A stretch of DNA of 64,000 nucleotides, taken from the NCBI RefSeq assembly GCF_003336245.1, contig NZ_QPHM01000001.1, positions 620,001-684,000 on the forward strand. Direction: 5' to 3'. Positions 421-15,043 of this stretch are shown piece by piece. The notes beneath the pieces are model-generated. The model searched no databases. It saw only the letters and a list, made by a program, of their open reading frames with translations, and had not been told where the DNA came from. Origin of the DNA: Haloplanus salinus. GTDB taxonomy: Archaea; Halobacteriota; Halobacteria; Halobacteriales; Haloferacaceae. The translations under genes and the position numbers were made by a program. The number at the start of each line of letters is the position of its first letter. Position 1 is the first letter of the stretch.

Positions 421-2094
421 ATGAATCACGTAAGGGGGACACTGCTCAGCATCGACGTGAGCGAGCGGGAGACAACCACGGAGGGAGTGGCGGACGAACG
501 GGCGTCGTTCGTCGGCGGCCGCGGCCTCTGTACGAAGCTCGCTCACGACCGCATTCCGTTCGACGCCGACCCGTTCGGCCCGGAGAATCGCATCTACTTC
601 TCGACGGGGCCGCTCCAGCAGTCGGAGATGTCGTTCACCGGCCGGATGAGCTGTACGGGACTCTCGCCGCTGACCGACGGGCTGCTCTCGACGAACGCCG
701 GCGGCTACCTCTCCCGAAACTTCGTCGGGACGGGCCACTCGGCGGTCGAAATCGTCGGCGAAGCCGACGAGTTGCTGGTCGTTCACGTCACCGACGAGGG
801 CGTCGAGTTCGTCGAGGCGCCGGAACTGTCGGGGGCGACGGTGCCCGAAGTGACCGGGTACGTGAACCGCGAGCGCGATTTGGACGCCGAGCACGTCCTT
901 TGCATCGGCCCCGCAGGCGAGAATCTCGTCCGCTTCGCCTGCGTGATGACCTACGAGAGTCGGGCCTTCGGTCGGGGTGGAATGGGGGCCGTCCTCGGCT
1001 CGAAAAACGTGAAGGCCGTCACGTTCGAGGGCGACGCCGCCCCGGAGGTTGACCTCCCCGAAGGCGTCCAGCGGGAGGTGCACAGCGCCGCCGCCACCTC
1101 CGACGACCTGATGCGTCGGCAGGGGACCACCGGCGGGACGGAGATGATCAACGACAACTTCTCGCTGCCGACCCGCTATTTCGAGAAGTACCATTTCGAG
1201 GACGCGGATAAGATCGGCGGCAACGCCGTCGAGGAAAAGAAGTACAAGAAGGGGTCGTGTTCGATGTGCGCGTTCGCCTGCAAACTCCCGACGCGCGACG
1301 AGGAGACGGGTCTGGAGACGGAGGGACCCGAGTTCGAGACGGTGTTTTCCTTCGGGAGCAACTGCGAAGTCGGCGACATCGTCGACGTGATGAAGTCGAA
1401 CGAGCTCTGTGATATCTACGGCATGGATACCATCTCTTGTGGCAACGCCGTCGCCGCCTATCTGGCCGCCGAGGACGAGTTCGGCAACGCCGATCTGGTC
1501 CACGAGACGGTGGAGAAAATCGCGACTCGCGAGGGGATCGGCGACCTCCTCGCCGAGGGCGTCTCCCGCGCTGCCGCCGATCTGGGCGTCCGGAACTACA
1601 CGGTCAAGAACATGGAGTTCGCGGCCCACGACGGGCGCGTCCTCCACGGCCAAGGGCTCAGTTACGCCGTCGCGAACCGCGGCGGCGACCACATGTACTC
1701 CACGACGCTCCGCGTGGAGTACAACGGTGAGGTCGACCCCGAGACGCTGGAGGGGAAGCCGGAGATCGTGGTGCGCCGCGAGAACCACGCCGCGTTCCGG
1801 GACTCCGGCATCGTCTGTGCGTTCGCCGGCGGAACGGGTCACGTGACCGAAGAGACCCTGGAACGGCTCTTCGAGTGTGACTACGCCGACCTCCAAGACG
1901 TCGGCGCGCGGACGGTCGAACTCGAACGCCACTTCAACAACAAGCGTGGGATGGACCGCGAGGCGGACACCCTCCCCTACGACCTCCCCGGCATCGAGGC
2001 GGCGCTCGACGAGTACTACGAGCGCCGCGGGTGGAACGCCGACGGCACCGTCGACGACGAGACGGTTCGTGAGTACGCCGTCGCGGACGACTGA
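421..2094 (+). CDS. Aldehyde:ferredoxin oxidoreductase family protein (tungsten/molybdenum)
   Basis: This 557-residue protein has the AOR family layout. The N-terminal pterin-binding domain contains VGGRGLCTKL (31-40), the FSTGPL segment (60-65) and RAFGRGGMGAVLGSKN (181-196). The 4Fe-4S cluster ligands are visible as C280-x2-C283-x3-C287 plus C466 in the segment DSGIVCAFAG. AOR enzymes oxidise aldehydes to acids and pass electrons to ferredoxin, using bis-tungstopterin. Substrate cannot be read from sequence; sugar-acid breakdown nearby suggests glyceraldehyde or a similar product. The ATG is only about 50 bases after the upstream kinase. The MoaD-like gene follows 50 bases downstream and is probably cotranscribed. 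Confidence 0.93.
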   Translation: MNHVRGTLLSIDVSERETTTEGVADERASFVGGRGLCTKLAHDRIPFDADPFGPENRIYFSTGPLQQSEMSFTGRMSCTGLSPLTDGLLSTNAGGYLSRNFVGTGHSAVEIVGEADELLVVHVTDEGVEFVEAPELSGATVPEVTGYVNRERDLDAEHVLCIGPAGENLVRFACVMTYESRAFGRGGMGAVLGSKNVKAVTFEGDAAPEVDLPEGVQREVHSAAATSDDLMRRQGTTGGTEMINDNFSLPTRYFEKYHFEDADKIGGNAVEEKKYKKGSCSMCAFACKLPTRDEETGLETEGPEFETVFSFGSNCEVGDIVDVMKSNELCDIYGMDTISCGNAVAAYLAAEDEFGNADLVHETVEKIATREGIGDLLAEGVSRAAADLGVRNYTVKNMEFAAHDGRVLHGQGLSYAVANRGGDHMYSTTLRVEYNGEVDPETLEGKPEIVVRRENHAAFRDSGIVCAFAGGTGHVTEETLERLFECDYADLQDVGARTVELERHFNNKRGMDREADTLPYDLPGIEAALDEYYERRGWNADGTVDDETVREYAVADD

Positions 2095-2144
2095 CGCGGC
2101 GGACACGAGGGGTGCTTTTCACCGACCGGCCCATAGCCTCGGGC

Positions 2145-2381
2145 ATGGACGTCGACGTTCGGTGTTACGGCGAGGTTGCGGCGGCGGTGGGGGAGAGGGA
2201 GGTGTCGCTCGCACTCGACGCCGACGCGACGCTCGGTGACGTGGTGGCGAAGTTGGGCGTCGGGGAGCGGGCGTTCTCCGGCGGACTCGTCGTGATGGTG
2301 AACGGCCGCCACGCCGGCGCCGAAGACGGACTCGAGGACGGCGATACCGTCGCGTTGTCGCAGGCGCCGATGCGCGAGTGA
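2145..2381 (+). CDS. MoaD/ThiS-like ubiquitin-fold protein lacking the C-terminal diglycine
   Basis: A 78-residue beta-grasp protein. MDVDVRCYGEVAAAVG, the central LGDVVAKLGV helix and LVVMVNGRHAGAEDGLEDGDTVAL match MoaD/ThiS/SAMP proteins. The ATG at 2145 is chosen because it removes an upstream extension unlike the family. Such proteins normally end in Gly-Gly, which is adenylated and thiocarboxylated for molybdopterin synthesis, or conjugated to lysines (SAMPs). This one ends SQAPMRE, so it cannot follow that chemistry as it stands. The position behind the AOR gene fits a pterin-cofactor or AOR-partner role, which is inference. Confidence 0.8.
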   Translation: MDVDVRCYGEVAAAVGEREVSLALDADATLGDVVAKLGVGERAFSGGLVVMVNGRHAGAEDGLEDGDTVALSQAPMRE

Positions 2382-2435: not shown

Positions 2436-4100
2436 ATGGCCGCTCAGCGAGGGAACGACGCCCGTCTAGATAACCGGGAGCGTACCGACTGGACGATCCG
2501 TGACGAGGACGCCCGCGAGTACGTTCGGGGCGCCGTCGACGCGACGGTAGGACTCGTCGAATCGACGTACGGCCCGGCCGGGATGGAGAAACTCGTGGCG
2601 ACGGCGGACCTGCAGAACCGGGACGAGATGCGCCGCATCGACGACGCGGGACGACTCTTCGACGCCATCGACAACGGCGGCGGCTTCGGCCACCCGGTCG
2701 CGGCGCTGTTCGTCGACGGCGTCGCGGGGATGCGGAGCCGGGTCCACGACGGGACGACGGCGGCGGTCCTCCTGACGGGTGCCCTCATGGAGGAGGGGTT
2801 CGACCTCGTCGAGCAGGGACTCGCCCCCAGCAGCGTCCTCGTGGGGTACGGCATCGCTCGGGCGCGCGCCGGCGACATCCTCGACGAACTCGCCCGGCCC
2901 GTCGACGCGACCGACGAGGCGACGCTCGCGAACGTCGCAGCGACGACGATGACGACCGCCCTCGACCCCACGGTTCGGGAGGATCTGTCGGCACGCGTCG
3001 CGTCGACGGTCGGCCGCTTGGCCGACGCGGGCGACGGCGGCTGGCCGAACACCGATCACGCGAAGGTGCTCACGGCGCCGGGCGTCGACACGACGACCTG
3101 CGACGGGCTCGTGTTGTCCCGACCCGCCGACGCCGGCCCGAACGGCGCGGGCGTCACGACATCGCTCACGGACGCGACGGTCGCGATTCTGGACCGGGAG
3201 ATCGACTTCGAGGAGACGGCGAGCGTGCTCGGCGGCGGCGAGGGCATCCGGCTCACCTCGGCCGCGGCGGCGGAGCGCTACCGGACCGAACTCGACGCGC
3301 GCAGGCGCGACGCGGCCGAGCGCTTGGTCGAACGTGGCGTCGACGTCCTCGTCTCGCTGGAGAAACTCGACGAAGGGGTCGTCGACGCGTTCGAGCGGGC
3401 GGGGCTGGCGGTCGTCGACAAGGCCACCTACCCCAAGGAGGACGTCTACCGGCTCGCAACGGCAACCGGCGGGACGGTCGTCTCGAAGCTCGGAGACCTC
3501 ACCGCGGGCCGATTGGGGCGGGCCGGGCGCGTCGAGCGACGCGAGGTCGGCGACGAGGTTTGGACCGTCTTCGAGGGCTGTCCCGGGCCGGTGTTCACCA
3601 TCGTCTCGGGCGGGGAGACCGCCGAGGAGGCGCGGCGACGGGAGGGCGCGATAGCGGACGCCCTCGAAACGGCCGCCACCGCCGCCATCGACGAGCAGGT
3701 GGTGCCGGGCGCTGGCGCGCCGGCCGCCGCGGTCGCGGCCGGTATCCGAGCGGGGGAGACGACCGTCACCGGTCGCGAGCAACTCGCCGCCGCCGCGTTC
3801 GCCGACGCCGTCGAACGGCTTCCGGTCGTCCTCGCGCGCAACGCCGGACACGATCCGCTCGCCGCGGTGACGGACCTGCGGACGGCCCACGCCGCGGAGG
3901 GCCGGTCGTCGGTCGGGGTGAGCGTCGACACCGGCGATCCGATCGACGCGTGGGCGGCCGGGGTCGTCGAGCCGCGTCGGGTGTTCTCACAGGCCATCGA
4001 GACGGCGGGCGCGATCGTCGAGCAACTGCTCACGATCGACTCGGTCCTCTACCCCAACGTCGAACTGTACGGCTACACGCCGCGGCCGGAGCGTGAGTGA
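2436..4100 (+). CDS. Divergent group II chaperonin (thermosome/TCP-1)-like protein
   Basis: 554 residues, about the size of a thermosome subunit and with recognisable chaperonin sequence throughout: YGPAGMEKL (45-53, family LGPKGMDKM), HDGTT (104-108, family GDGTT, nucleotide-binding Asp kept), VPGAGAP near the C-terminal equatorial domain (family VPGGGA), and ARNAGHDPLAAV with the second conserved Asp. The ITNDGATIL segment is not conserved (RIDDAGRLFDAID). The divergence is far beyond that among ordinary haloarchaeal cct subunits, so this is unlikely to be the housekeeping thermosome. It could form homo- or mixed rings with its convergent paralogue or act as a non-folding relative. A TATA-like TTAAGAAC lies about 28 bases before the ATG, suggesting a leaderless mRNA. 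Confidence 0.85.
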   Translation: MAAQRGNDARLDNRERTDWTIRDEDAREYVRGAVDATVGLVESTYGPAGMEKLVATADLQNRDEMRRIDDAGRLFDAIDNGGGFGHPVAALFVDGVAGMRSRVHDGTTAAVLLTGALMEEGFDLVEQGLAPSSVLVGYGIARARAGDILDELARPVDATDEATLANVAATTMTTALDPTVREDLSARVASTVGRLADAGDGGWPNTDHAKVLTAPGVDTTTCDGLVLSRPADAGPNGAGVTTSLTDATVAILDREIDFEETASVLGGGEGIRLTSAAAAERYRTELDARRRDAAERLVERGVDVLVSLEKLDEGVVDAFERAGLAVVDKATYPKEDVYRLATATGGTVVSKLGDLTAGRLGRAGRVERREVGDEVWTVFEGCPGPVFTIVSGGETAEEARRREGAIADALETAATAAIDEQVVPGAGAPAAAVAAGIRAGETTVTGREQLAAAAFADAVERLPVVLARNAGHDPLAAVTDLRTAHAAEGRSSVGVSVDTGDPIDAWAAGVVEPRRVFSQAIETAGAIVEQLLTIDSVLYPNVELYGYTPRPERE

Positions 4101-4184
4101 GTCGAACGGATTATTGTAACTGTGTGCCGGTGGGTCGCCGGACCGACCCGGCGACCGACCGGTACCGGGGTGCGGGAAACGGTA

Positions 4185-5747
4185 TCAGGCCGGCCCGGGG
4201 TCGGGCGCGTCGGCCGTCGGCTCGGTCTCCTCCTCGTCGCCGAGGTCCGTGGCGTCGAGTCGTTGATCGATGCGGATCAACTGAACCGCCAGATCGGTCG
4301 CCGTCGTCAACACGTTCCGTTTCAGCGACACCGGTTCGACGATTGGCAGGTCGCCGAGGACGTCCGTCGTCGTCCCGGCGAGGGCATCGATTCCGACGGA
4401 ATCCCGGCCTTCGGAGCGGGCGACGCGCAACTGGACGGCCGCCCGCCCGGCGTCCAGGCCGGCCGTGGCCGCCAGCGCCCGGGGGACGGCCATCAGCGCC
4501 GCGCCGAACGCGTCGGCGGCGAGTTGCTCGCGGCCGGGGAGCGAGCGGGCCTCCTGAGCGACGCGCCACGACGCGGTCGCCTCGGCGGCGCCGCCGCCGG
4601 GGACGACGCGTCCCTCCCCGACGGCCGCGGCGGTCGACGCGACGGCGGCCTCGACCGAGCGCTCGAACGCCCCGGCCGTCCGGGGGTCCGGGGCGCGACA
4701 GAACAGCGTCCGGACCGAGTCCCCGGCGTCGGACGTGACGAACGTCATGTCGCGGCCGGCCTTCCGATTGACGTCGACGCTGCCGCGGCCGAGCGTCTCC
4801 GCGGTGACCTGTGCGAGCGTCGGCACGACCGTCGCGTCGGTCGCCCGGGCGAGCCGCCGGAGTTCGTCGGCGTCGACCCGGTTGATGCCGACGATGCCCG
4901 CCGCGGCGAGTTCCGACTGGACGCGCTCGTTGATCGCCCGTTCGGTGATCACGACGCCACAGCCGGCGTCGACCGCCGCCCGGAGTTGTTCGGTGAACGT
5001 CCCGGACTCGTGTTCGGCTAGCGCCTCGCGGTCGGCGAAGGAGTCGGCCTCGAACTCGACGCGGCGGGAGACGCGTCCGAGTTGACTCCCGGCGTGGGGC
5101 ATGTCGACCGTCGAGGACAGCAGGGCGATGCCCGTTTCGGACCGCGAGCGGGCCATGGATTCGAGAACCGGCCCACGTTCGAGGACGACGCCGGAGACGA
5201 GGTTGGTCTCGGCGGCGGCACCGCCGGTTCGTGAGACGACACGGATGCGCTCGCTCGCGTCGTCGCCCGCGTCGGCGACGGCCGCCGCGACCTGCGTCGA
5301 GACGGAGCGCCGGACCTGCGGGTTCCGGGTGCCGGTGAGAGCGGTCCTGGCCACGTCGGCCGGATCGACCGACGAGAGCGGGCGCGCCGTGTGATCGACG
5401 GCGTCGAGGGCGATGGCGAGCCCGTCACGGTACCCCCGTTCGATGGCCGTCGGGTGGAGGCCGCGTTCGGCGAGGCGGTCCGCGCGCCGGAGCAAGGCCC
5501 CGGCCAGCGTGACGACCGAGCCCGTCCCGTCCCCGTACTGCTCGTCGAAGCCGGCGGCGGCCGAGTCGAGAAGCGTCACGGCCGGATCGTCCACGTCCAG
5601 TCGGTCGAGGAGCTCCGTCGACGAGGCGGTCGCCGTCACGGTGCCGTCCGCTTGAATCAGGAGCTTGTTTGCCCCGAACGGCCCGAGAGCGGTTTCGACG
5701 ACGTCACAGACGGTGCGGACGCCGCCAACCAGCTCTTTGTTGACCAT
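4185..5747 (-). CDS. Second divergent chaperonin (thermosome/TCP-1)-like protein
   Basis: 520 residues from the ATG at 5747, where MVNKELVGGV begins; an ATG nine codons upstream would add a Gly/Pro-rich extension. Chaperonin features are LGPFGANKLL (21-30), YGDGTGSVV (71-79, family GDGTT), RVVPGGGAAEA and ATAGLDAGRAAVQLR near the C-terminus, plus an acidic tail. It lacks the usual ITNDGA motif and long N-terminal extension. The gene converges on the preceding paralogue with 84 bases between the stops. It is not a simple copy: the two differ in nearly every motif. The function of such extra chaperonin-like proteins is unknown to me; ATP-driven folding or assembly is inferred only from the family. 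Confidence 0.82.
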   Translation of the reverse strand: MVNKELVGGVRTVCDVVETALGPFGANKLLIQADGTVTATASSTELLDRLDVDDPAVTLLDSAAAGFDEQYGDGTGSVVTLAGALLRRADRLAERGLHPTAIERGYRDGLAIALDAVDHTARPLSSVDPADVARTALTGTRNPQVRRSVSTQVAAAVADAGDDASERIRVVSRTGGAAAETNLVSGVVLERGPVLESMARSRSETGIALLSSTVDMPHAGSQLGRVSRRVEFEADSFADREALAEHESGTFTEQLRAAVDAGCGVVITERAINERVQSELAAAGIVGINRVDADELRRLARATDATVVPTLAQVTAETLGRGSVDVNRKAGRDMTFVTSDAGDSVRTLFCRAPDPRTAGAFERSVEAAVASTAAAVGEGRVVPGGGAAEATASWRVAQEARSLPGREQLAADAFGAALMAVPRALAATAGLDAGRAAVQLRVARSEGRDSVGIDALAGTTTDVLGDLPIVEPVSLKRNVLTTATDLAVQLIRIDQRLDATDLGDEEETEPTADAPDPGPA

Positions 5748-5828
5748 AGTCCCTATCGGACCCCCGGGGAGCAATAATGTGTCGCGTCGGCCGACGAACC
5801 AACTTCCGTGCGAAAAAATAACAGGGTT

Positions 5829-5848
5829 AATTATTTATGCTATAAATT
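5829..5848 (+). promoter_or_regulatory. AT-rich promoter of the ABC transporter operon
   Basis: An almost pure A/T stretch (around TTATTTATGCTATAAATT) stands out from about 65% GC surroundings and ends about 16 bases before the ATG of the binding-protein gene. It contains archaeal TATA-box candidates at about -20 to -35. It lies between divergently oriented genes, so one element may also serve the chaperonin-like gene on the minus strand. Confidence 0.55.
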
Positions 5849-5863
5849 AACAAGAATACTCGC

Positions 5864-7456
5864 ATGTCGAGACGAAACTCCGACGACGGCTCCGGGACAC
5901 ATCCGGATGCGGATGAAGAAGAGACAACCCGTCGTGACTTCGTGAAAGTCACTGCCGGTGCAGCGGGTGCCGGTGCGATGGGCGCACTCGCCGGCTGTGG
6001 CGGGAGTGGCGGTGGCGGTGGTGGCGACGGCGGCGACGGTGGCGATGGTGGCGGTGGTGGCGACGGCGGCGACGGCGACGGTGGCGGCGGCGACGGCGGC
6101 GGCAGCGAGACCGTCACCGTCGACTTCCTCTCCGCGAACGCCGTGGAGAACGGCGACATCCAGAGTCACTACCAGTCGTCGATGGAGGATTTCGCCTCGA
6201 AAAACGGCAGCTACCAAGTCAACCTCCAGACGGCGTCCTACGGGGACATCCAGCAGTCCCTGTCCTCGCGCGTCCAGACCGGCAACCCGCCCGCGCTAGC
6301 GGAGTCCGGTGGGCTCGGCCTCCAGTTCTTCCGCAACGACCAGTTGGCCGACCACGCCTCGTTCATGGAGGGGACCGACACCCTCCCCGACGACCTCACG
6401 GCCGCGGGCCAGCAGGTCGCCGGGTTCCGGGGCGACTACTGGTCGATGGGTGCCGTGCGTAACACCAACAGTAATCTCGGCATCCGGCCCAAGACGTTCT
6501 CGCAGGCCGGCATCGAGAACCCGATGGAAGATCTGGCGACGTGGAGCCAGTTCTACGAAGCCCTCCAGACCATCGACGAGGAACAGGACATCATCGCCTA
6601 CGAGGAGACCGGGGTTCCGGGCGACCTCGAGTCGTACTGGGGCTACGCCCGGACGGCGTACACCGACGGGACGGACCCCTGGCTCCGCGGCGATGGGACC
6701 GATCCGACCGTCGTCATCGGGAACGAGGAGATGGAGGAAGACCGGCAGAAGACCGACGGCATGATCAAGGCGTGTGTCAACCTCGCCAACGAGTTCAGCA
6801 GTGCCGAGGCTGCCTCGCGCGGCGACGAGGACATCCCCGCCCTGATGCTCAGCGGCCGGGTCGCCTCCTTCAACTACGCGCTCGCGACGGCGAACCGCTG
6901 GTACTCCGTCGACGAGAACGCGCAGATCGGCTGGAACGACGGCGAAGGCGACTTCATGCTGCTCCCCCACCCGCGGCTGGACGAGGACTTCGGCGATGCC
7001 ATCGGCATCGACGACCTCAGCGGCCACTCGGGCGACCACGGTGGTCACGTCTGGGGGCTCGAGCAGTGTCACACCATCTTCAGCGAGGTGAGCAGTCAAC
7101 AGCAGGAGGGCGCCTTCGCGCTCGGTCGCTATCTGCTCGAGGATAACGACTTCGTCCTCCCCGCGTGGGGCGAGTTCTACGAGGCCATCCCGGGTCTCGC
7201 GCCCAAACTCGACGCGCTGCGCAGCGAGTACGACCTGCCGCAGAACTTCGAGCAGTCGCTCGCCAACCAAGTCGAACACGGCAGCCAGTACAGCAACACG
7301 GGTGGCCCGTGGGACGTCTGGCCGACCGACCCGATCCGCTGGACGGACATCAACGAGACGATCAGCCAGGGGATCGCCGGTCAGCACAGCGCCGAGGAGA
7401 CGCCCTCCATCGTGCGTGACCGGGTGCTGACGCGACTCGAAGAGGAGAACGAGTGA
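5864..7456 (+). CDS. ABC transporter substrate-binding lipoprotein (sugar type, Tat-exported)
   Basis: A 530-residue family 1 (CUT1-like) solute-binding protein. The N-terminus has a twin-arginine motif TTRRDFVKV (21-29) followed by an Ala/Gly hydrophobic stretch and a lipobox ALAGC with Cys45, so the mature protein is a Tat-exported, lipid-anchored protein outside the membrane. A very long Gly/Asp linker (about 46-85) follows, as is common in haloarchaeal binding proteins. The binding domain has the periplasmic-binding fold pattern (FLSANAVENGDIQ, SSRVQTGNPPALAESGG, MGAVRNTNSNLGI). It is the first gene of an operon with two permeases and an ATPase. The ligand is probably a sugar, sugar acid or oligosaccharide, by context. 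Confidence 0.88.
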   Translation: MSRRNSDDGSGTHPDADEEETTRRDFVKVTAGAAGAGAMGALAGCGGSGGGGGGDGGDGGDGGGGGDGGDGDGGGGDGGGSETVTVDFLSANAVENGDIQSHYQSSMEDFASKNGSYQVNLQTASYGDIQQSLSSRVQTGNPPALAESGGLGLQFFRNDQLADHASFMEGTDTLPDDLTAAGQQVAGFRGDYWSMGAVRNTNSNLGIRPKTFSQAGIENPMEDLATWSQFYEALQTIDEEQDIIAYEETGVPGDLESYWGYARTAYTDGTDPWLRGDGTDPTVVIGNEEMEEDRQKTDGMIKACVNLANEFSSAEAASRGDEDIPALMLSGRVASFNYALATANRWYSVDENAQIGWNDGEGDFMLLPHPRLDEDFGDAIGIDDLSGHSGDHGGHVWGLEQCHTIFSEVSSQQQEGAFALGRYLLEDNDFVLPAWGEFYEAIPGLAPKLDALRSEYDLPQNFEQSLANQVEHGSQYSNTGGPWDVWPTDPIRWTDINETISQGIAGQHSAEETPSIVRDRVLTRLEEENE

Positions 7457-7566
7457 TCGCGCGCTCCCCCACCGCGGGGTAGTCACGACGCTCCCTTTCG
7501 ACGGGGGGAGAGCGCCGTTGGAATTGGACAGAAAAGTTTATTATCGTAATATTGATCAGTGATACC

Positions 7567-8514
7567 ATGGCACAGAAACAGGGGCGATCCCGAGACGAAA
7601 TCCGTGAGCAGTACGGGCTCGACGAGCGGACGCTCACGGATCGACTCCGAGAGAACTGGACGGGATACGTCTTCATCGTACCGACCTTCGTCGCGTTCAC
7701 GGCGCTATTTTATTATCCGATGGTCCGTGGAGTTACGATGACACTGACCGACACGCGCCTGGGCGAGCCGGGGCAGTTCGTCGGACTGGCGAACTACCAG
7801 TGGCTCGTAACGAACGACCTGTTCGTCTACGCTTTCGGCTGGTCGATAGCGTTCGTCGCCGGTACGACGTTCCTCCAGTTGGCCCTTGGACTGGTTGCCG
7901 CACTGCTGTTGAACGAACTCGGCGACGCGGCCAAGGACTGGATCGGCGCCGTGATCATGTCGCCGTACTTCGCCGCACCGCTGGCCGGCGGTGTGATCTG
8001 GATGTGGTTCCTCGACAGCAGTTTCGGCTTCGTGACCAAGGCCTTCGGCGTGTTCGGCGCCGAGGCGCCGGCGTTTCTCGCGACCGGGATCTGGCCGTTC
8101 GTTTCGCTGATCGTCGCTCAGACGTGGCACGACTACGCCTACTCGGCGATCATCTACGCGGCGGCCATCGCGAGCATCCCGAAAGAGCAGTACGAGGCGG
8201 CCGCCCAGTCCGGAGCCAATCGCCTCCAGCGATTCCGTGACGTGACCCTCCCACGGCTGCTGATTCCGACCATCGTCATTCTCTCGCTGCGGACGGCCTG
8301 GAACATCGCCGAGTTCTCCCAGCCCTTCGCGCTCACCGGCGGTGGCCCGGGGACCAAGACGATGCTCCTCAGCATCCTCACCTACCGCGTCGCGTTCGTG
8401 AACAACAACTTCGCCCGCGCGTACACCATCGGGATGGCGATGGTCCTCCTGTCGATGACCGCCGCGGTCATCTACGTGAAGGCGATCAGCGAAGAGGAGA
8501 ACCTCTACGTCTAA
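7567..8514 (+). CDS. ABC transporter permease, MalF-like
   Basis: 315 residues from the ATG at 7567; a TTG 15 bases upstream is an unlikely start. The protein has a short cytoplasmic N-terminus, then about six membrane segments beginning GYVFIVPTFVAFTALFYYP, typical of binding-protein-dependent permeases of the sugar CUT1 class. The cytoplasmic EAA loop that docks with the ATPase is visible as EQYEAAAQSGANRLQRFRDV followed by TLPRL. It forms the heteromeric channel with the next gene. The second permease ATG lies 3 bases after this stop, so translation is probably coupled. Confidence 0.92.
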   Translation: MAQKQGRSRDEIREQYGLDERTLTDRLRENWTGYVFIVPTFVAFTALFYYPMVRGVTMTLTDTRLGEPGQFVGLANYQWLVTNDLFVYAFGWSIAFVAGTTFLQLALGLVAALLLNELGDAAKDWIGAVIMSPYFAAPLAGGVIWMWFLDSSFGFVTKAFGVFGAEAPAFLATGIWPFVSLIVAQTWHDYAYSAIIYAAAIASIPKEQYEAAAQSGANRLQRFRDVTLPRLLIPTIVILSLRTAWNIAEFSQPFALTGGGPGTKTMLLSILTYRVAFVNNNFARAYTIGMAMVLLSMTAAVIYVKAISEEENLYV

Positions 8515-8516
8515 CG

Positions 8517-9356
8517 ATGCTCAACGACAATAGACGCAGCCGCGTGCTGCTGTACGCCGGCATCACCGCGTTCGCCCTGTTCGCAATCGTCCCGTACTAC
8601 TGGGTGATTCGAACGTCGTTCCTGACGAACATCGCCGCGATCAGCCCGGATACGGGCTTCATCCCGGCGCTCTCGCAGTTCACGCTCGAATCGTACACCC
8701 AGATCTGGGACCGCTTCGCCTTCGTCACCTTCTTCCGGAACAGCATTATCGTCTCCGTGACGGCGACGATCATCTCGCTGTTCTTCGCGATTCCGGGGGC
8801 TTACGCCTTCGCACGGCTTGACTTCCCCGGTCGGAAGGTGCTGTTCTACACCGCCGTGTTCACCATCATGTTCCCGTGGATCGTGCTGACGATCCCCGTC
8901 TACGAGGTGTTTTACTTCCTCAACTTGGTGAACACCCTGCCGGGTGTCATCATCGCCCTCTCGATTTTCGTCCTGCCACAGAACATCTGGCTGCTCCAGG
9001 GGTTCTTCAGACAGGGCATCCCCGAGAACATCGAGGAGGCCGCGCTCATCGACGGGCACAACGAACTCACCGCCTTCCTCAGGATCGTGTTGCCCCTGAG
9101 CCTGCCAGCGGTGGCGGCGGCGGCGCTGTTTGCCTTCCTGACCGCCTGGAACAACTTCCTCTGGGTGTTCGTCCTGACCACCGACGAGTCCGTCCGGACG
9201 GCGACGGTGGCCATCTACTACATCCTCGGCAGCGACGTGCTCCGGGAGTGGAACGTGCTGATGGCGTCGCTCGTCTTGCTCGTCGCACCGCCCGTGATCT
9301 TCTACGGGCTATCCCGCCGCTACGTCGGCGAGGGCCTGGGAGGGACGCCGAAGTAA
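8517..9356 (+). CDS. ABC transporter permease, MalG-like
   Basis: 279 residues with six predicted membrane helices. It starts with a short cytoplasmic end and ITAFALFAIVPYYWVIRTS, the usual MalG-type first helix and loop. The EAA motif is ENIEEAALIDGHNELTAF followed by RIVLPLSLP. It is the second half of the permease pair, encoded 3 bases after the MalF-like gene and 76 bases before the ATPase gene. The role is sugar or sugar-acid uptake across the cytoplasmic membrane; the substrate is inferred only from the neighbouring catabolic genes. Confidence 0.92.
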   Translation: MLNDNRRSRVLLYAGITAFALFAIVPYYWVIRTSFLTNIAAISPDTGFIPALSQFTLESYTQIWDRFAFVTFFRNSIIVSVTATIISLFFAIPGAYAFARLDFPGRKVLFYTAVFTIMFPWIVLTIPVYEVFYFLNLVNTLPGVIIALSIFVLPQNIWLLQGFFRQGIPENIEEAALIDGHNELTAFLRIVLPLSLPAVAAAALFAFLTAWNNFLWVFVLTTDESVRTATVAIYYILGSDVLREWNVLMASLVLLVAPPVIFYGLSRRYVGEGLGGTPK

Positions 9357-9432: not shown

Positions 9433-10602
9433 ATGGCACAACTGGAACTCGAAGAGGTAACGAAGGTATTCGATACGAGCGCGGAGACCATCGTCGCAGT
9501 GGAGGAACTCTCCCTGGATATCGACGACGGGGAGTTCATCGTCGTCGTCGGCCCCTCGGGCTGTGGGAAGTCGACGACGCTTCGCATGATCGCGGGGCTG
9601 GAGACGGTGACCGACGGCGAAATCCGACTGGCCGGCGAGCGCATCAACGAGAAGTCGCCCAAGGACCGGGATATCGCGATGGTGTTCCAGTCGTACGCAC
9701 TGTACCCACACAAGACGGTCCGACAGAACATGGCCTACGGCCTGCACCTGAGTACGGACCTCGATAGCGAGGAGATCGACCACCGGGTGCGGGAGGCGGC
9801 CGAGATGATGGGTATCGAGGATCTGCTCGACAAGAAGCCGTCGTCGCTGTCCGGTGGCCAACAACAGCGCGTCGCGACGGGGCGGGCGATCGTTCGGGAG
9901 CCGTCCCTGTTTCTGTTCGACGAACCGCTGTCGAACCTCGACGCCAAACTCCGCAAGCACATGCGGACCGAACTCTCCCGCATCCACTCCGAGGTCGGAA
10001 TTACGACGGTGTACGTCACTCACGATCAGGAGGAGGCGATGACGATGGCCGATCGCATCGTCATCCTCGATCAGGGGAGCCTCCAGCAGGTCGGCGAACC
10101 CAAAGAAGTGTATCACGAACCGGTGAACAAGTTCGTCGCGAACTTCATCGGCTCGCCGTCGATGAACTTTATCGACGTCGAACTGGAGCGCAACGCGGAC
10201 GGCTCCGGGAGGCTCGTCGGCCAGGACTTCGATTACAGCGTGAGTAACCGACTGCTCCAGCAGATCGACCCGTCGGTGTCGGATGTCGTCTTCGGCATCC
10301 GCCCCGAGAACGCCCGGATCGATCCGGACGCACCGGTAGACGGGAGCGTCGAAACGACCGTCGACGTCGTGGAAGTCGTCGGCTCCGACAACTTCATTTA
10401 CCTCGACCTCGCGGGCAAGGAGTTCCGCGTCCGTACTCCTTCGGAGGTCGAACCGGCGGAGGGCGAGACGGTCCGGATCACGTTCGACGAGGACGATATC
10501 CACCTGTTCGACAGCGCGTCGGGCGAGGCGCTCGCCCACGGCTACCCCGACGCCGACGTCACGGCGACCGTCGAACGGTCCGACACGACGGCGGACGATT
10601 GA
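9433..10602 (+). CDS. ABC transporter ATP-binding protein, MalK/UgpC type
   Basis: 389 residues. Walker A is GPSGCGKST (about 39-47), the Q-loop MVFQSYALYPH, the signature LSGGQQQR, Walker B LFLFDEPLSNLDA and the H-loop VYVTHDQEEAM. The C-terminal third is a TOBE/regulatory domain (FGIRPENARI), the hallmark of MalK-like carbohydrate importers. A short AT-rich stretch (AGAGAATAATTAAT) precedes the ATG and might be an internal promoter. This ATPase energises the two permeases upstream. Confidence 0.94.
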   Translation: MAQLELEEVTKVFDTSAETIVAVEELSLDIDDGEFIVVVGPSGCGKSTTLRMIAGLETVTDGEIRLAGERINEKSPKDRDIAMVFQSYALYPHKTVRQNMAYGLHLSTDLDSEEIDHRVREAAEMMGIEDLLDKKPSSLSGGQQQRVATGRAIVREPSLFLFDEPLSNLDAKLRKHMRTELSRIHSEVGITTVYVTHDQEEAMTMADRIVILDQGSLQQVGEPKEVYHEPVNKFVANFIGSPSMNFIDVELERNADGSGRLVGQDFDYSVSNRLLQQIDPSVSDVVFGIRPENARIDPDAPVDGSVETTVDVVEVVGSDNFIYLDLAGKEFRVRTPSEVEPAEGETVRITFDEDDIHLFDSASGEALAHGYPDADVTATVERSDTTADD

Positions 10603-10646: not shown

Positions 10647-11702
10647 TCACCCGGCCCCGGACGACGTAGCCCCGGGATCGGCCCGCAGTTCCGCCATGAC
10701 GCGACGCATCTCCGCAGTCTCGTTTACCGACCCGCTCTCTATCCGTGCCGCCATCGCCACGGCGACCGACTCCCGTGCGTCGACGAGCCGACGGTCCAGG
10801 CTGTCGGCCCGCGCCGCCTGCGTCGGCGTGAGCGGTCCCTCTCGGACGGTCGTCAGGAGCGCCCGTGCGTCACGGGAGGTCCGTAGTGCCTGACGCCCGT
10901 ATGCGGTGACGCGTTCGCTGTCGTTCCGTGCCCACGTGACCTCCTGCGCTCCCTCGTCGACGATGGTGACGAGGAACGCCGCCTTCGACAACCGCGTGTC
11001 GGTCCGACTAACGCCCGGTGCGAGGTCACCCCGGGCGTCGATGCCGACCAAAACCGTTCGTTCCGCCGGGTTGTACGTGTCCGACGGGTAGGCGGCGGTG
11101 CCGACGGCGACGGCGCTACCGAGAATGAGCGTCAACACGATCACCCCGAGGAACACGCGCGAGGCGCCCCGAACCGGCTTCAGCCCGGCGAACGGGTTGT
11201 TCCGCGTGCGCTCGAAGGAGAGGCCGGACGCCTTGCTGACGGTGTCCGCGAGGGCGTGAGTGCGCTCCGAGGCGCCGGTGACGACGACGCGACCCGGTTC
11301 GGTGATCCGGACGAAGGCGTTGTGGAACCCACCGTACAGCACCATCAGTCCCGGTCCCTCCTGGAACGACTCGCGTGTCACCTCCTCGTAGTCGTCGTCG
11401 GCCCGGATCGCCGGAACGATGGTTTCGAGGCAGTCGAGCGGGTCGTCCACCGTCGTCGTCGAGACGAAGATGGAGCCCGTTTCGGCGCTGAACCCGTCGT
11501 CGACGTCGGCGAATCGCCGGCGGGTCGAGATGACCGCGCGTTTCGTGTACGCGATGCCGAACGGGAGCGTCGCCGCGACGAGACCGAGGGCGACCGTGGG
11601 CAGGAATCGGACCGGCGGTCCGCCGTAGTGTATCGTCGCCCAGACGCCGAGCAGGACTGCAAACCCACCGCCGCCCCAGGCGACCGTCCGAAGGGTGTTC
11701 AT
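10647..11702 (-). CDS. Hypothetical membrane protein
   Basis: 351 residues from the ATG at 11702. It has two hydrophobic helices near the N-terminus (VAWGGGGFAVLLGVWATI and FLPTVALGLVAATLPFGIAY), a cytoplasmic-type domain of about 120 residues, then a third helix (FLGVIVLTLILGSAVAVG) and a C-terminal domain of about 150 mostly helical, charged residues. I recognise no enzyme motif. The gene starts 2 bases after the stop of the 93-residue protein upstream, so both are probably one transcript. The stop faces the ABC ATPase gene from the other strand. Confidence 0.7.
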   Translation of the reverse strand: MNTLRTVAWGGGGFAVLLGVWATIHYGGPPVRFLPTVALGLVAATLPFGIAYTKRAVISTRRRFADVDDGFSAETGSIFVSTTTVDDPLDCLETIVPAIRADDDYEEVTRESFQEGPGLMVLYGGFHNAFVRITEPGRVVVTGASERTHALADTVSKASGLSFERTRNNPFAGLKPVRGASRVFLGVIVLTLILGSAVAVGTAAYPSDTYNPAERTVLVGIDARGDLAPGVSRTDTRLSKAAFLVTIVDEGAQEVTWARNDSERVTAYGRQALRTSRDARALLTTVREGPLTPTQAARADSLDRRLVDARESVAVAMAARIESGSVNETAEMRRVMAELRADPGATSSGAG

Positions 11703-11703
11703 A

Positions 11704-11985
11704 TCAGCCAAAGAACGTCCGTTTGAGACGGCCGAGGATCGTCGTCTGCCGGGCCTGAATCTCGGCTTCGCAGACGGGACGGAGCTTCCGCTCGAGGTCC
11801 TCCCGACTCTCGAACCGTTCCACGTCGGCCTGCTGGAGGAACTCCGCCAGCATCATCGAGTTCCCCGCCTCGTCGAGCGTGATGTTTTCGAGTGGCATAT
11901 TCCGTTCCAGCCGTCGCGACGTGACCGGGTAGGACCACCCGGCCTCGACGATGAGTTCGTGGACGGCGTCGGGGCCGACGGTCAT
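11704..11985 (-). CDS. Small haloarchaeal protein, possibly DUF5789-like
   Basis: 93 residues starting MTVGPDAVHEL at 11985; longer readings run into low-complexity Thr/Pro/Arg sequence and are rejected. The protein has a PVTSRRLERNM segment, then acidic helices (MMLAEFLQQADVERFESREDLERKL) and a basic C-terminus LGRLKRTFFG. The pattern of a short PVT segment, a strand and then an acidic helix recalls DUF5789 proteins, but this is a weak match by eye. It is directly upstream of, and probably cotranscribed with, the membrane protein gene. Confidence 0.6.
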   Translation of the reverse strand: MTVGPDAVHELIVEAGWSYPVTSRRLERNMPLENITLDEAGNSMMLAEFLQQADVERFESREDLERKLRPVCEAEIQARQTTILGRLKRTFFG

Positions 11986-12100: not shown

Positions 12101-13276
12101 TCACTCGTAGGTGTGGACCGATCCGGTCGCGTTGTCCTCGATGTAGTCCCAGTCGTACTCGACGCCCAGCCCGGGACCGTCGGGGATGGCCACCGTCCCG
12201 TCGGCGTCGACGGCATCCATCATGTCGGAGTAGTCGCCCTCGTAGACCGGCGGCTGCGTGTTCTGACACTCGGGGTGAACCAAGGCGAGTTCGTAGTAGT
12301 TGGTGTTGCGCGTGGCGGCGATACAGTGCCGCTGTGCCGGCCCGGGGGCGTGGAACTCGACGTCGAGGCCGAACGCCTCGGCCATCCGCGCCACCTTCAT
12401 CGCGCCGGTGATACCCGCGTCGTACTCGGGATCCGCGCGCAGGAAGTCGGTGCCGTCGCCGGCGGCGAAGTCGGCGTGTGGCTCCAAGCCCCGGACGTGC
12501 TCGGTCTGCAGGATCGGCGTCTCGAGGCTCTCCCGGAGTTTACGGTGGGCGTGCTGGGAGATGCCGCCGTCGCGGTACGGGTCCTCGTACCAGAAAAAGC
12601 CCTGCGCGTCGAGCTCCCGGCCGAGTTTCAGGGCGTCCGCGAACGTCTCCAGCTCGCAGGCCGGGTCGTGCATGAGGTCCATCTCCGAACCGACGCGTTC
12701 GCCGACGGCGTGGACGGCCTCGATTTCGCGGCGCAGGTCCCGCGAATCGTCACCGCCACCCCAGCCGTGGATCTTGAACCCGCCGAAGCCGGCGTCGCGA
12801 CACTCCTCGGCGAAGTCCGCGAAGGCCGCCGGCGAGTCCAACCCGCCCGCTTCGTCGCCGTGATACGTCGACGCGTAGGCCGGAATCCGCTCCCGGTAGG
12901 TGCCGAGCAGTTCGTGGATAGGGGCGCCGTAGTACTTGCCCGCGACGTCCCACAGCGCGATGTCGATCGGTCCCATCCCCATCCGGTCGTACTTTCTGAG
13001 GGCGCGTTTGATCTCCGACCAGTGTTTCTCGCGTGCGAGCGGGTTCTTCCCCACGAGATACGGGGCGATGATGTTGATCTGGGCGGCGCCCGGGGAGTTC
13101 CCGCCGACGTACTCGCCGGTGATCCCCTCGTCCGTGTGAATCTGGAGCGCGAACAGCGTTCGGTGGGTGGTCTCGCCCGGGTCGTACACGAGGTTGAACC
13201 CGTGTTCGTCGGTGCCCACGTCCTCGAGGGGGTACTCGAACTCACGGCTCTCGATTTTCGTGATGGTCGGGGCCAT
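12101..13276 (-). CDS. Enolase-superfamily sugar-acid dehydratase (mandelate racemase/muconate lactonizing type), copy A
   Basis: 391 residues from the ATG at 13276 (MAPTITKIES). The N-terminal capping domain is followed by the barrel with K168-I-H170, metal ligands D204 (MDLMHDPA), E231 (FFWYEDP) and E259 (LQTEHV), and a likely catalytic H309 (VEFHAPGP). This Lys-x-His layout differs from the Lys-x-Asp pattern of the two enolase-superfamily genes further right. The family removes water from an aldonate to give a 2-keto-3-deoxy acid. The exact substrate (rhamnonate, fuconate, xylonate, gluconate and others) is not clear. The gene is a close paralogue of the gene at 13871-15043, with a stress protein gene between. 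Confidence 0.9.
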   Translation of the reverse strand: MAPTITKIESREFEYPLEDVGTDEHGFNLVYDPGETTHRTLFALQIHTDEGITGEYVGGNSPGAAQINIIAPYLVGKNPLAREKHWSEIKRALRKYDRMGMGPIDIALWDVAGKYYGAPIHELLGTYRERIPAYASTYHGDEAGGLDSPAAFADFAEECRDAGFGGFKIHGWGGGDDSRDLRREIEAVHAVGERVGSEMDLMHDPACELETFADALKLGRELDAQGFFWYEDPYRDGGISQHAHRKLRESLETPILQTEHVRGLEPHADFAAGDGTDFLRADPEYDAGITGAMKVARMAEAFGLDVEFHAPGPAQRHCIAATRNTNYYELALVHPECQNTQPPVYEGDYSDMMDAVDADGTVAIPDGPGLGVEYDWDYIEDNATGSVHTYE

Positions 13277-13870: not shown

Positions 13871-15043
13871 TCACTCGTAGACGTGCACCGATCCGGTCGC
13901 GTTATCCTCGATGTAGTCCCAGTCGTACTCGACGCCCAGTCCGGGACCGTCGGGGACGGCCACCGTCCCGTCGGCGTCGATGGTGTCGATCATGTCGGAG
14001 TAGCCGCCCTCGTAGACGGGTGGGATGGGGTTGTCGACGTTCGGATGCACCAGTGCGAGTTCGTAGTAGTTGGTGTTGCGCGTGGCGGCCATGCAGTGTC
14101 GCTGGGCCGGCCCGGGGGCGTGGAACTCGACGTCGAGGCCGAACGCCTCGGTCATGCGGGCGATCTTCATCGCGCCGGTGATGCCCGCGTCGTACTCGGG
14201 GTCGGCGCGGACGAAGTCGGTCGCGTCCGCCTGCACGAAGTCGGCGTGTGGCTCCAGGCCCCGGACGTGTTCGGTCTGCAGGATCGACGTCTCGAGGCTC
14301 TCCCGGAGTTTGCGGTGGGCGTGCTGGGAGATGCCGCCGTCGCGGTACGGATCCTCGTACCAGAAAAAGCCCGCCTCGTCACAGGCCCGGCCCACTTTCA
14401 GCGCGTCCGCGAACGTCTCGTACTGACAGGCCGGGTCGAGCATGAGGTCCATCTCCGAGCCGACCCGCTCGCCGAGCGTGCGGACCGTCTCGATTTCCCG
14501 GTCGATGTCGCGCCACTCGTCGGACCCCCAGACGTGCATCTTGAACGCGGGATACCCCATCTCCAAACACTCCTCGGCGAAGTCCGCGTAGGCCTCGGGG
14601 GAGTCGAGCCCCCCGTTCTCGTCGGCCTCGTACGTGGAGGCGTAGGCGGGGAGGCGGGTGCGGTAGGTGCCGAGCAGTTCGTGGATGGGGGCGTCGTAGT
14701 ACTTGCCAGCGAAGTCCCACAGCGCGATGTCGATCGGTCCCATCCCCATCCGGTCGTACTTTCTGAGGGCGCGTTTGATCTCCGACCAGTGTTTCTCGCG
14801 TGCGAGCGGGTTCTTCCCCACGAGATAGTCCGCGAACGTGTTGATCTGGGCGGCACCCGGGGAACTCCCGCCGACGTACTCGCCGGTGATCCCCTCGTCC
14901 GTGTGAATCTGTAGCGCGAACAGCGTTCGGTGGGTGGTCTCGCCCGGGTCGTACACGAGGCTGAAGCCGTCCGGGTTCTGCCCGACGTCCTCGAGTGGAT
15001 ACGAGAACTCCGTGCTCTCGACCCGCGTGATCGTAGGTGACAT
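13871..15043 (-). CDS. Enolase-superfamily sugar-acid dehydratase, copy B
   Basis: 390 residues, closely similar along its length to the protein at 12101-13276, including identical blocks such as NPLAREKHWSEIKRALRKYD. The catalytic layout is the same: K168-M-H170, D203, E230, E258 and H308. The two diverge mainly in the first 30 residues and around 140-200 (the segment YEADENGGLDSPEAYADFAE and following). The tandem copy with retained active site suggests recent duplication, perhaps for a related but different aldonate. The SDR gene at 15083-15823 lies directly upstream on the same strand and could supply the lactone or aldonate. Confidence 0.9.
   Translation of the reverse strand: MSPTITRVESTEFSYPLEDVGQNPDGFSLVYDPGETTHRTLFALQIHTDEGITGEYVGGSSPGAAQINTFADYLVGKNPLAREKHWSEIKRALRKYDRMGMGPIDIALWDFAGKYYDAPIHELLGTYRTRLPAYASTYEADENGGLDSPEAYADFAEECLEMGYPAFKMHVWGSDEWRDIDREIETVRTLGERVGSEMDLMLDPACQYETFADALKVGRACDEAGFFWYEDPYRDGGISQHAHRKLRESLETSILQTEHVRGLEPHADFVQADATDFVRADPEYDAGITGAMKIARMTEAFGLDVEFHAPGPAQRHCMAATRNTNYYELALVHPNVDNPIPPVYEGGYSDMIDTIDADGTVAVPDGPGLGVEYDWDYIEDNATGSVHVYE

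Follow-up and report, generated by a model that had tools for sequence, protein, structure and literature searches.

In the haloarchaeon Haloplanus salinus, a stretch of 64,000 nucleotides (contig NZ_QPHM01000001.1, positions 620,001 to 684,000; hereafter the window) carries two genes, P1 and P2, that encode strongly diverged group II chaperonins and are linked to one CUT1-type ATP-binding cassette (ABC) importer and to a membrane protein of no known family, F3. P1 and P2 form two divergent families that occur together, coevolve, differ in their pattern of catalytic residues and have been transferred horizontally. The reading that we favor, tentatively and at somewhat less than an even chance, is that they encode an operon-dedicated, hetero-oligomeric accessory group II chaperonin, in which P1 would be ATPase-active and P2 would hold ATP, and which would serve the importer, the sugar-acid enzymes of the island, or both.

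P1 and P2 are complete but strongly diverged group II chaperonins

P1 (positions 2436 to 4100 of the window, plus strand, 554 amino acids) and P2 (4185 to 5747, minus strand, 520 amino acids) are complete genes arranged tail to tail. The segment between them (4101 to 4184) leaves about 84-90 bp between the coding ends, and across the convergent pairs measured this gap is 12-154 bp. The reading frame of P2 stays open to position 5774 with a TTG codon. Both proteins match the Pfam family Cpn60_TCP1 (PF00118) over their full length (P1, E 2.3e-93 and 313.9 bits; P2, E 1.5e-98 and 331.1 bits; cut-off 34.3 bits), but they stay below the curated NCBIfam thermosome cut-offs, with P1 and P2 scoring 273 and 296 bits against 671.1, 258 and 293 against 450, and 255 and 283 against 400. 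The open frames, together with ratios of nonsynonymous to synonymous substitution rates (dN/dS) of 0.17-0.36 for both genes, which are indicative of purifying selection, rule out pseudogenes in the window. In the metagenome-assembled genome Halobacteriales QS_4_69_31, the P1 frame is open over 1166 codons (L124:8153-11653), which may reflect an N-terminal fusion or, the DNA being GC-rich, a frame that is open by chance.

AlphaFold models, built on alignments of the window proteins with those of related loci, gave the three-domain thermosome fold for both P1 and P2 (predicted template modelling score, pTM, 0.82 and 0.83; predicted local distance difference test, pLDDT, 84 and 86, respectively). 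The best matches of these models in the PDB were Mm-cpn, thermosomes and TRiC with template modelling (TM) scores of about 0.8-0.87, and the closest solved relatives of both proteins are archaeal group II chaperonins. In the region of the helical protrusion, the built-in lid of group II chaperonins, P1 and P2 align without large gaps, yet each model has a short stretch with pLDDT below 50 (P1, residues 261-269; P2, residues 221-231).

The genome holds seven PF00118 genes. Besides P1 and P2 these comprise three members of ordinary haloarchaeal cct clades, one member of an intermediate clade and one further diverged paralogue (G000:C1:75220-76734). In the phylogeny, P1 and P2 each make up a clade of their own outside the ordinary cct clades, both with 100% support in the Shimodaira-Hasegawa-like approximate likelihood ratio test (SH-aLRT) and with stems of about 1.0 (P1) and 1.5 (P2) changes per site; with branches of this length we do not trust the position that the tree gives P1 with respect to P2 or the remaining diverged paralogues. 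The pair is thus not the only set of thermosome genes in the genome, and orthology to ordinary cct genes is ruled out by the NCBIfam scores and the tree. The initial annotation, made from the sequence of the window, had described two very divergent, full-length chaperonin-like genes facing each other, unlike normal cct subunits and unlike one another, and had asked whether normal cct genes exist elsewhere in the genome. All of this was borne out by the reading frames, Pfam matches, models and tree, by the five additional PF00118 genes and by orthologous pairs in 21 further genomes. With P1 and P2 neither the only thermosome genes of the genome nor orthologous to cct genes, its proposal of a specialised chaperonin or chaperonin-derived complex gains support.

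Catalytic residues are retained in P1 and lost in P2

Residues were counted in an alignment of 120 chaperonins, in which P1 is represented by 25 rows and P2 by 20. The catalytic and nucleotide-site aspartates are kept in P1: that of the TND motif in 24/25 rows, that of GDG in 25/25 and the equivalent of D386 of Mm-cpn in 22/25. The P1 protein of the window retains all three, as the aspartates of T-x-D-A-G, HDGTT and ADAL (the D386 equivalent). In all 20 P2 rows, the TND aspartate is replaced by serine and the GDG aspartate is kept, while the D386 equivalent is lost in 19 of them (to Ser, Ala, Gly or Arg). The motifs HDGTT, GDGTG, NAGHD and TAGLD, which the initial annotation listed, are all present. 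Its further statement that both genes lack the ITNDGA segment holds for P2, which reads TATASS without the aspartate, but not for P1, where the segment is shifted (RIDDAG; consensus VTxDAG) and the aspartate remains.

Published mutants indicate that such a pattern is workable. Mm-cpn D386A binds ATP but does not hydrolyse it (PMC5019054), and GroEL D398A shows normal ATP binding with 3% of the ATPase activity (PMC3326522). In the Thermoplasma acidophilum alpha/beta thermosome, the other subunit type still cycles when one type is ATPase-dead (PMC5983026). In view of these precedents and of the residues lost, P2 is predicted to be an ATP-holding, non-hydrolysing subunit. P2 resembles a natural equivalent of the two point mutants in that the GDG aspartate is kept and the hydrolysis aspartate lost, but differs from them in that the TND aspartate is lost too and an intact partner gene lies alongside.

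A LILPEG-type strand motif at the N-terminus, found in 32 of 39 archaeal thermosomes, is present in none of the P1 (0/25) or P2 (0/20) rows. Together with the residues missing from P2, this loss could point to a complex of chaperonin descent that has given up folding proteins in a closed chamber for an assembly or regulatory role, as proposed for vertebrate BBS6, BBS10 and BBS12; P1, P2 and F3 would then jointly scaffold or gate the assembly of the importer at the membrane. BBS12 and MKKS also lack the hydrolysis motif (PMC2846930), and the obligate co-occurrence of the pair with membrane proteins including F3, described below, would fit such a role. However, the hydrolysis residues of P1 are kept, both models have three domains and lie near solved thermosomes, and both genes are under purifying selection. 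We regard this explanation as unlikely.

The pair is linked to one ABC importer and to F3

P2 is followed, across an intergenic region (5748 to 5863) from which the two genes diverge, by the gene for a solute-binding protein (SBP) of an ABC importer, a lipoprotein of the twin-arginine translocation (Tat) type (5864 to 7456, plus strand). The P2 and SBP genes are divergent and less than 300 bp apart in 14/21 genomes. Downstream on the same strand are genes for a permease (BPD_transp_1; 7552 to 8514), a second permease (8517 to 9356), recognized by its position and its similarity to genes named 'carbohydrate ABC transporter permease', and a MalK/UgpC-type ATPase with ABC_tran, TOBE_2 and OB_MalK matches (9433 to 10602). 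F3 (10647 to 11711, minus strand) is a membrane protein of 354 amino acids without a Pfam match. Next to it, also on the minus strand, is F12 (11704 to 11985), a 93-amino-acid protein weakly similar to DUF5789 at a score below the cut-off, followed on that strand by two enolase-superfamily genes of the mandelate racemase/MLE (MR/MLE) type, the first resembling sugar-acid dehydratases (12104 to 13276, with a frame open to 13645; 13871 to 15043).

Of 99 genomes surveyed in the family, 13 contained P2 and 14 contained P1; search thresholds, here and in the wider survey described below, were set by eye at gaps in the scores. A genome that is 70% complete (G031) contains an extra P1-like gene, 44% identical and devoid of the catalytic residues, in a different neighborhood that also includes a gene for aldehyde ferredoxin oxidoreductase (AOR). 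SBP orthologues (E up to 1e-100) were present in all 13 pair-carrying genomes and absent from the other 86 (Fisher p 1.6e-16), and F3 had exactly this distribution as well. All 13 islands contained members of the SBP and ATPase families and, by the genome survey, F3 (12 islands by gene clustering), whereas 12 had MR/MLE genes, about 10 had UxaA-like dehydratases and 5 had AOR. The twin-arginine and lipobox signal of the SBP was seen in 12/13 with the gene model used. SBP orthologues were also found in all nine further genomes with the pair, in one fragmented assembly (G334) on other contigs. In G303, the sole genome in which P2 is interrupted by an in-frame stop, P2 and the SBP gene each contain one (C3:214293-215831 and 216035-217570), suggesting a decaying island or assembly errors.

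The window does have the pair lying between an AOR/MoaD pair and a sugar ABC transporter, as initially annotated: upstream of P1 are a PfkB kinase gene and genes for AOR (421 to 2094, plus strand), present in some islands only, and for a MoaD/ThiS-like protein (2112 to 2381, plus strand). The island counts rule out AOR/MoaD as the defining partner. The specialised-chaperonin proposal remains the best reading and is now put in a sharper form, with P2 lacking the catalytic aspartates and the pair tied to the importer and the sugar-acid island. No match to the anti-phage defence systems of PADLOC was obtained for P1, P2 or F3, and a defence role was rejected on this basis. A phage origin was rejected too, the one PHROG hit being to a GroEL family and both weak and partial.

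The chaperonin might instead be dedicated to the TIM-barrel MR/MLE dehydratases of the island rather than to the importer. Genomes with the pair have a mean of 15.8 MR/MLE genes compared with 6.4 in those without it, a difference that holds when genome size is allowed for (t = 7.1), and about a dozen such genes lie in a single Haladaptatus island (L203, plasmid of Haladaptatus sp. YSMS36, positions 166000-214000), within 48 kb around a split pair. TIM barrels are, moreover, the fold most often seen in proteins that depend on GroE (PMC10068320). On the other hand, the nearest MR/MLE orthologue occurs in 36/99 genomes, the majority of which lack the pair, and this weakens the case for these enzymes as an exclusive partner. 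SBP and F3, in contrast, show a one-to-one correspondence with the pair. Other importer-linked chaperonins often lack an adjoining MR/MLE gene. Dedication to the dehydratases alone therefore appears quite unlikely to us.

Co-occurrence, coevolution and horizontal transfer of the pair

Across 391 genomes of the class, P1 was detected in 19, spanning 13/86 genera and four families. The nine carriers beyond the family set all have P2, giving 22 genomes with both genes, so that P1 accompanied P2 in 22/22 of the surveyed haloarchaeal genomes with P2; whether the two always co-occur had been raised at the outset, and the lone P1-like gene of one incomplete genome is the sole departure. The genes are convergent in 20/22. 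Outside Halobacteria, no match above 33% identity was found among the 80 loci retained in a search of bacteria and archaea with one genome per species. Carriers include Halegenticoccus soli, Haloferax sulfurifontis and Salinigranum salinum as well as plasmids of Haladaptatus and Halomarina, on which the copies are annotated merely as 'TCP-1/cpn60 chaperonin family protein'.

Across 13 genomes, the pairwise distances for P1 closely tracked those for P2 (r = 0.965; none of 10,000 Mantel permutations reached this value), and the correlation was 0.92 after removal of CCT1 distances. In the P1 tree some groupings cross family lines, such as G006 with G351, and G058 and G040 with Halomarina. A single P1 clade for the family was rejected by the approximately unbiased (AU) test (p-AU 2.7e-7), ruling out vertical inheritance with losses inside the family. 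These results indicate that the pair was transferred, and the agreement of the P2 distances indicates that the two genes travelled jointly. The island passes from family to family and also onto plasmids, and the module stays together.

Given this mobility, P1 and P2 could be passengers, that is, extra general chaperonins that add folding capacity to a mobile catabolic island and have no dedicated client. Such islands are often on plasmids, and haloarchaea tolerate many cct paralogues. A general chaperonin would, however, be expected to look ordinary and to keep its ATPase site, and the exact one-to-one linkage persists even though the proteins have diverged by about 50% and many rearrangements have occurred, some of which have split the island without loss of its parts. 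In our view passenger status is accordingly improbable.

A proposed role as a dedicated two-subunit chaperonin

Under the reading that we favor, P1 and P2 would be two subunits dedicated to one transferable island consisting of the CUT1-type importer with its Tat-exported SBP, F3 and the sugar-acid enzymes. They would most likely assemble as a mixed ring, as suggested by their co-occurrence, in which P1 would act as the motor by hydrolysing ATP and P2 would bind ATP without hydrolysis. The P2 subunits, staying ATP-loaded, might set the timing of the ring. Its private chamber would fold or assemble a part of the importer, the likeliest client because the invariant partners of the pair are the SBP, the ATPase, the permeases and F3. 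Substrates of Tat export fold in the cytoplasm before they are exported, and the SBP, having a Tat signal, should do likewise. The best candidates are the SBP prior to export or the MalK-type ATPase, and the dehydratases of the island would come second, as possible further clients.

Several points weigh against this reading. The complex, its ATPase activity and its clients are predictions, and mixed assembly is deduced from co-occurrence. The missing N-terminal strand may mean that ring contacts are altered or that assembly does not take place. Linkage alone does not separate importer clients from enzyme clients. In G379 the two genes are 31 kb apart, and in G404 the SBP gene lies between them. 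The p values reported here take genomes as independent, a problem that repeated transfer mitigates without removing. Finally, another diverged chaperonin type adjoins a formamidase gene, not an importer, in four genera (Haloarcula, Natronomonas, Natribaculum and Halocatena).

Relation to known chaperonins

P1 and P2 share full-length membership of the Pfam family and the predicted three-domain fold with the thermosome/CCT group, exemplified by the T. acidophilum alpha/beta hetero-oligomer and by the Haloferax volcanii cct1-3 type, and the alpha8beta8 thermosome offers a precedent for a mixed ring. They differ in being only about 27-34% identical to solved members, in falling below the NCBIfam cut-offs, in lacking the N-terminal strand and, for P2, the catalytic aspartates, and in being tied to one metabolic island in 19/391 genomes of the class rather than universal. 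BBS6 (MKKS), BBS10 and BBS12 are likewise diverged group II relatives, some without hydrolysis residues, that serve one cellular machine. They are, however, eukaryotic, of independent origin and without a link to ABC importers, so that we see an analogy and not membership. The formamidase-linked plasmid chaperonins are similarly diverged and have a fixed neighborhood with one metabolic function, but are encoded by single genes and are about 30% identical to P2. In the open-licence literature we found no paper joining chaperonins, mandelate racemase and haloarchaea, and broader searches likewise returned nothing on point.

Chaperonins are regarded as housekeeping machines with many clients. If the proposed role is correct, a chaperonin inherited with an importer and having a fixed catalytic asymmetry would offer a natural setting in which to ask why proteins depend on chaperonins and what purpose ATPase asymmetry has in CCT and other hetero-oligomeric chaperonins. 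Pathways acquired by horizontal transfer could then also arrive with a folding machine of their own. Importer-linked paralogues provide several parallel cases in genetically tractable haloarchaea.

Other diverged haloarchaeal chaperonins

Nine loci of diverged paralogues were chosen by low score with their neighbors unseen and set against twenty loci that hold ordinary or intermediate cct genes. CUT1-type ABC genes lay within about 6 kb in 8/9 of the former and 0/20 of the latter (p 2e-6), the nine loci including orthologues and representing about four clades. Three named plasmids with the L209 type show the same order of SBP, two permeases, UgpC, a further protein and chaperonin. The diverged paralogue of Haloarcula marina adjoins a UgpC importer, and that of Halorussus vallis sits between two ABC transporters. 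Some plasmid chaperonins have neither an importer nor a formamidase neighbor. It is conceivable, though we consider it doubtful, that private group II chaperonins which travel with single importers or operons and serve them evolved several times in haloarchaea, P1 and P2 being the most elaborate case, a two-subunit ring with an ATPase-dead subunit that would act as an obligate importer assembly factor.

The formamidase-linked loci are L245 (Natronomonas pharaonis PL131), L246 (Haloarcula marismortui pNG700), L254 and L256. The diverged paralogues at L205-L211 and L005/L221 adjoin CUT1 ABC genes, and some of them also lack the catalytic aspartates; the paralogue from the H. salinus genome itself (L005, L221) adjoins an orphan MalK-type ATPase. 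In two other importer-linked types, a gene for a small multi-pass membrane protein without a known family lies between those for the ABC ATPase and the chaperonin (L209:4723-5454 and L205:4790-5221).

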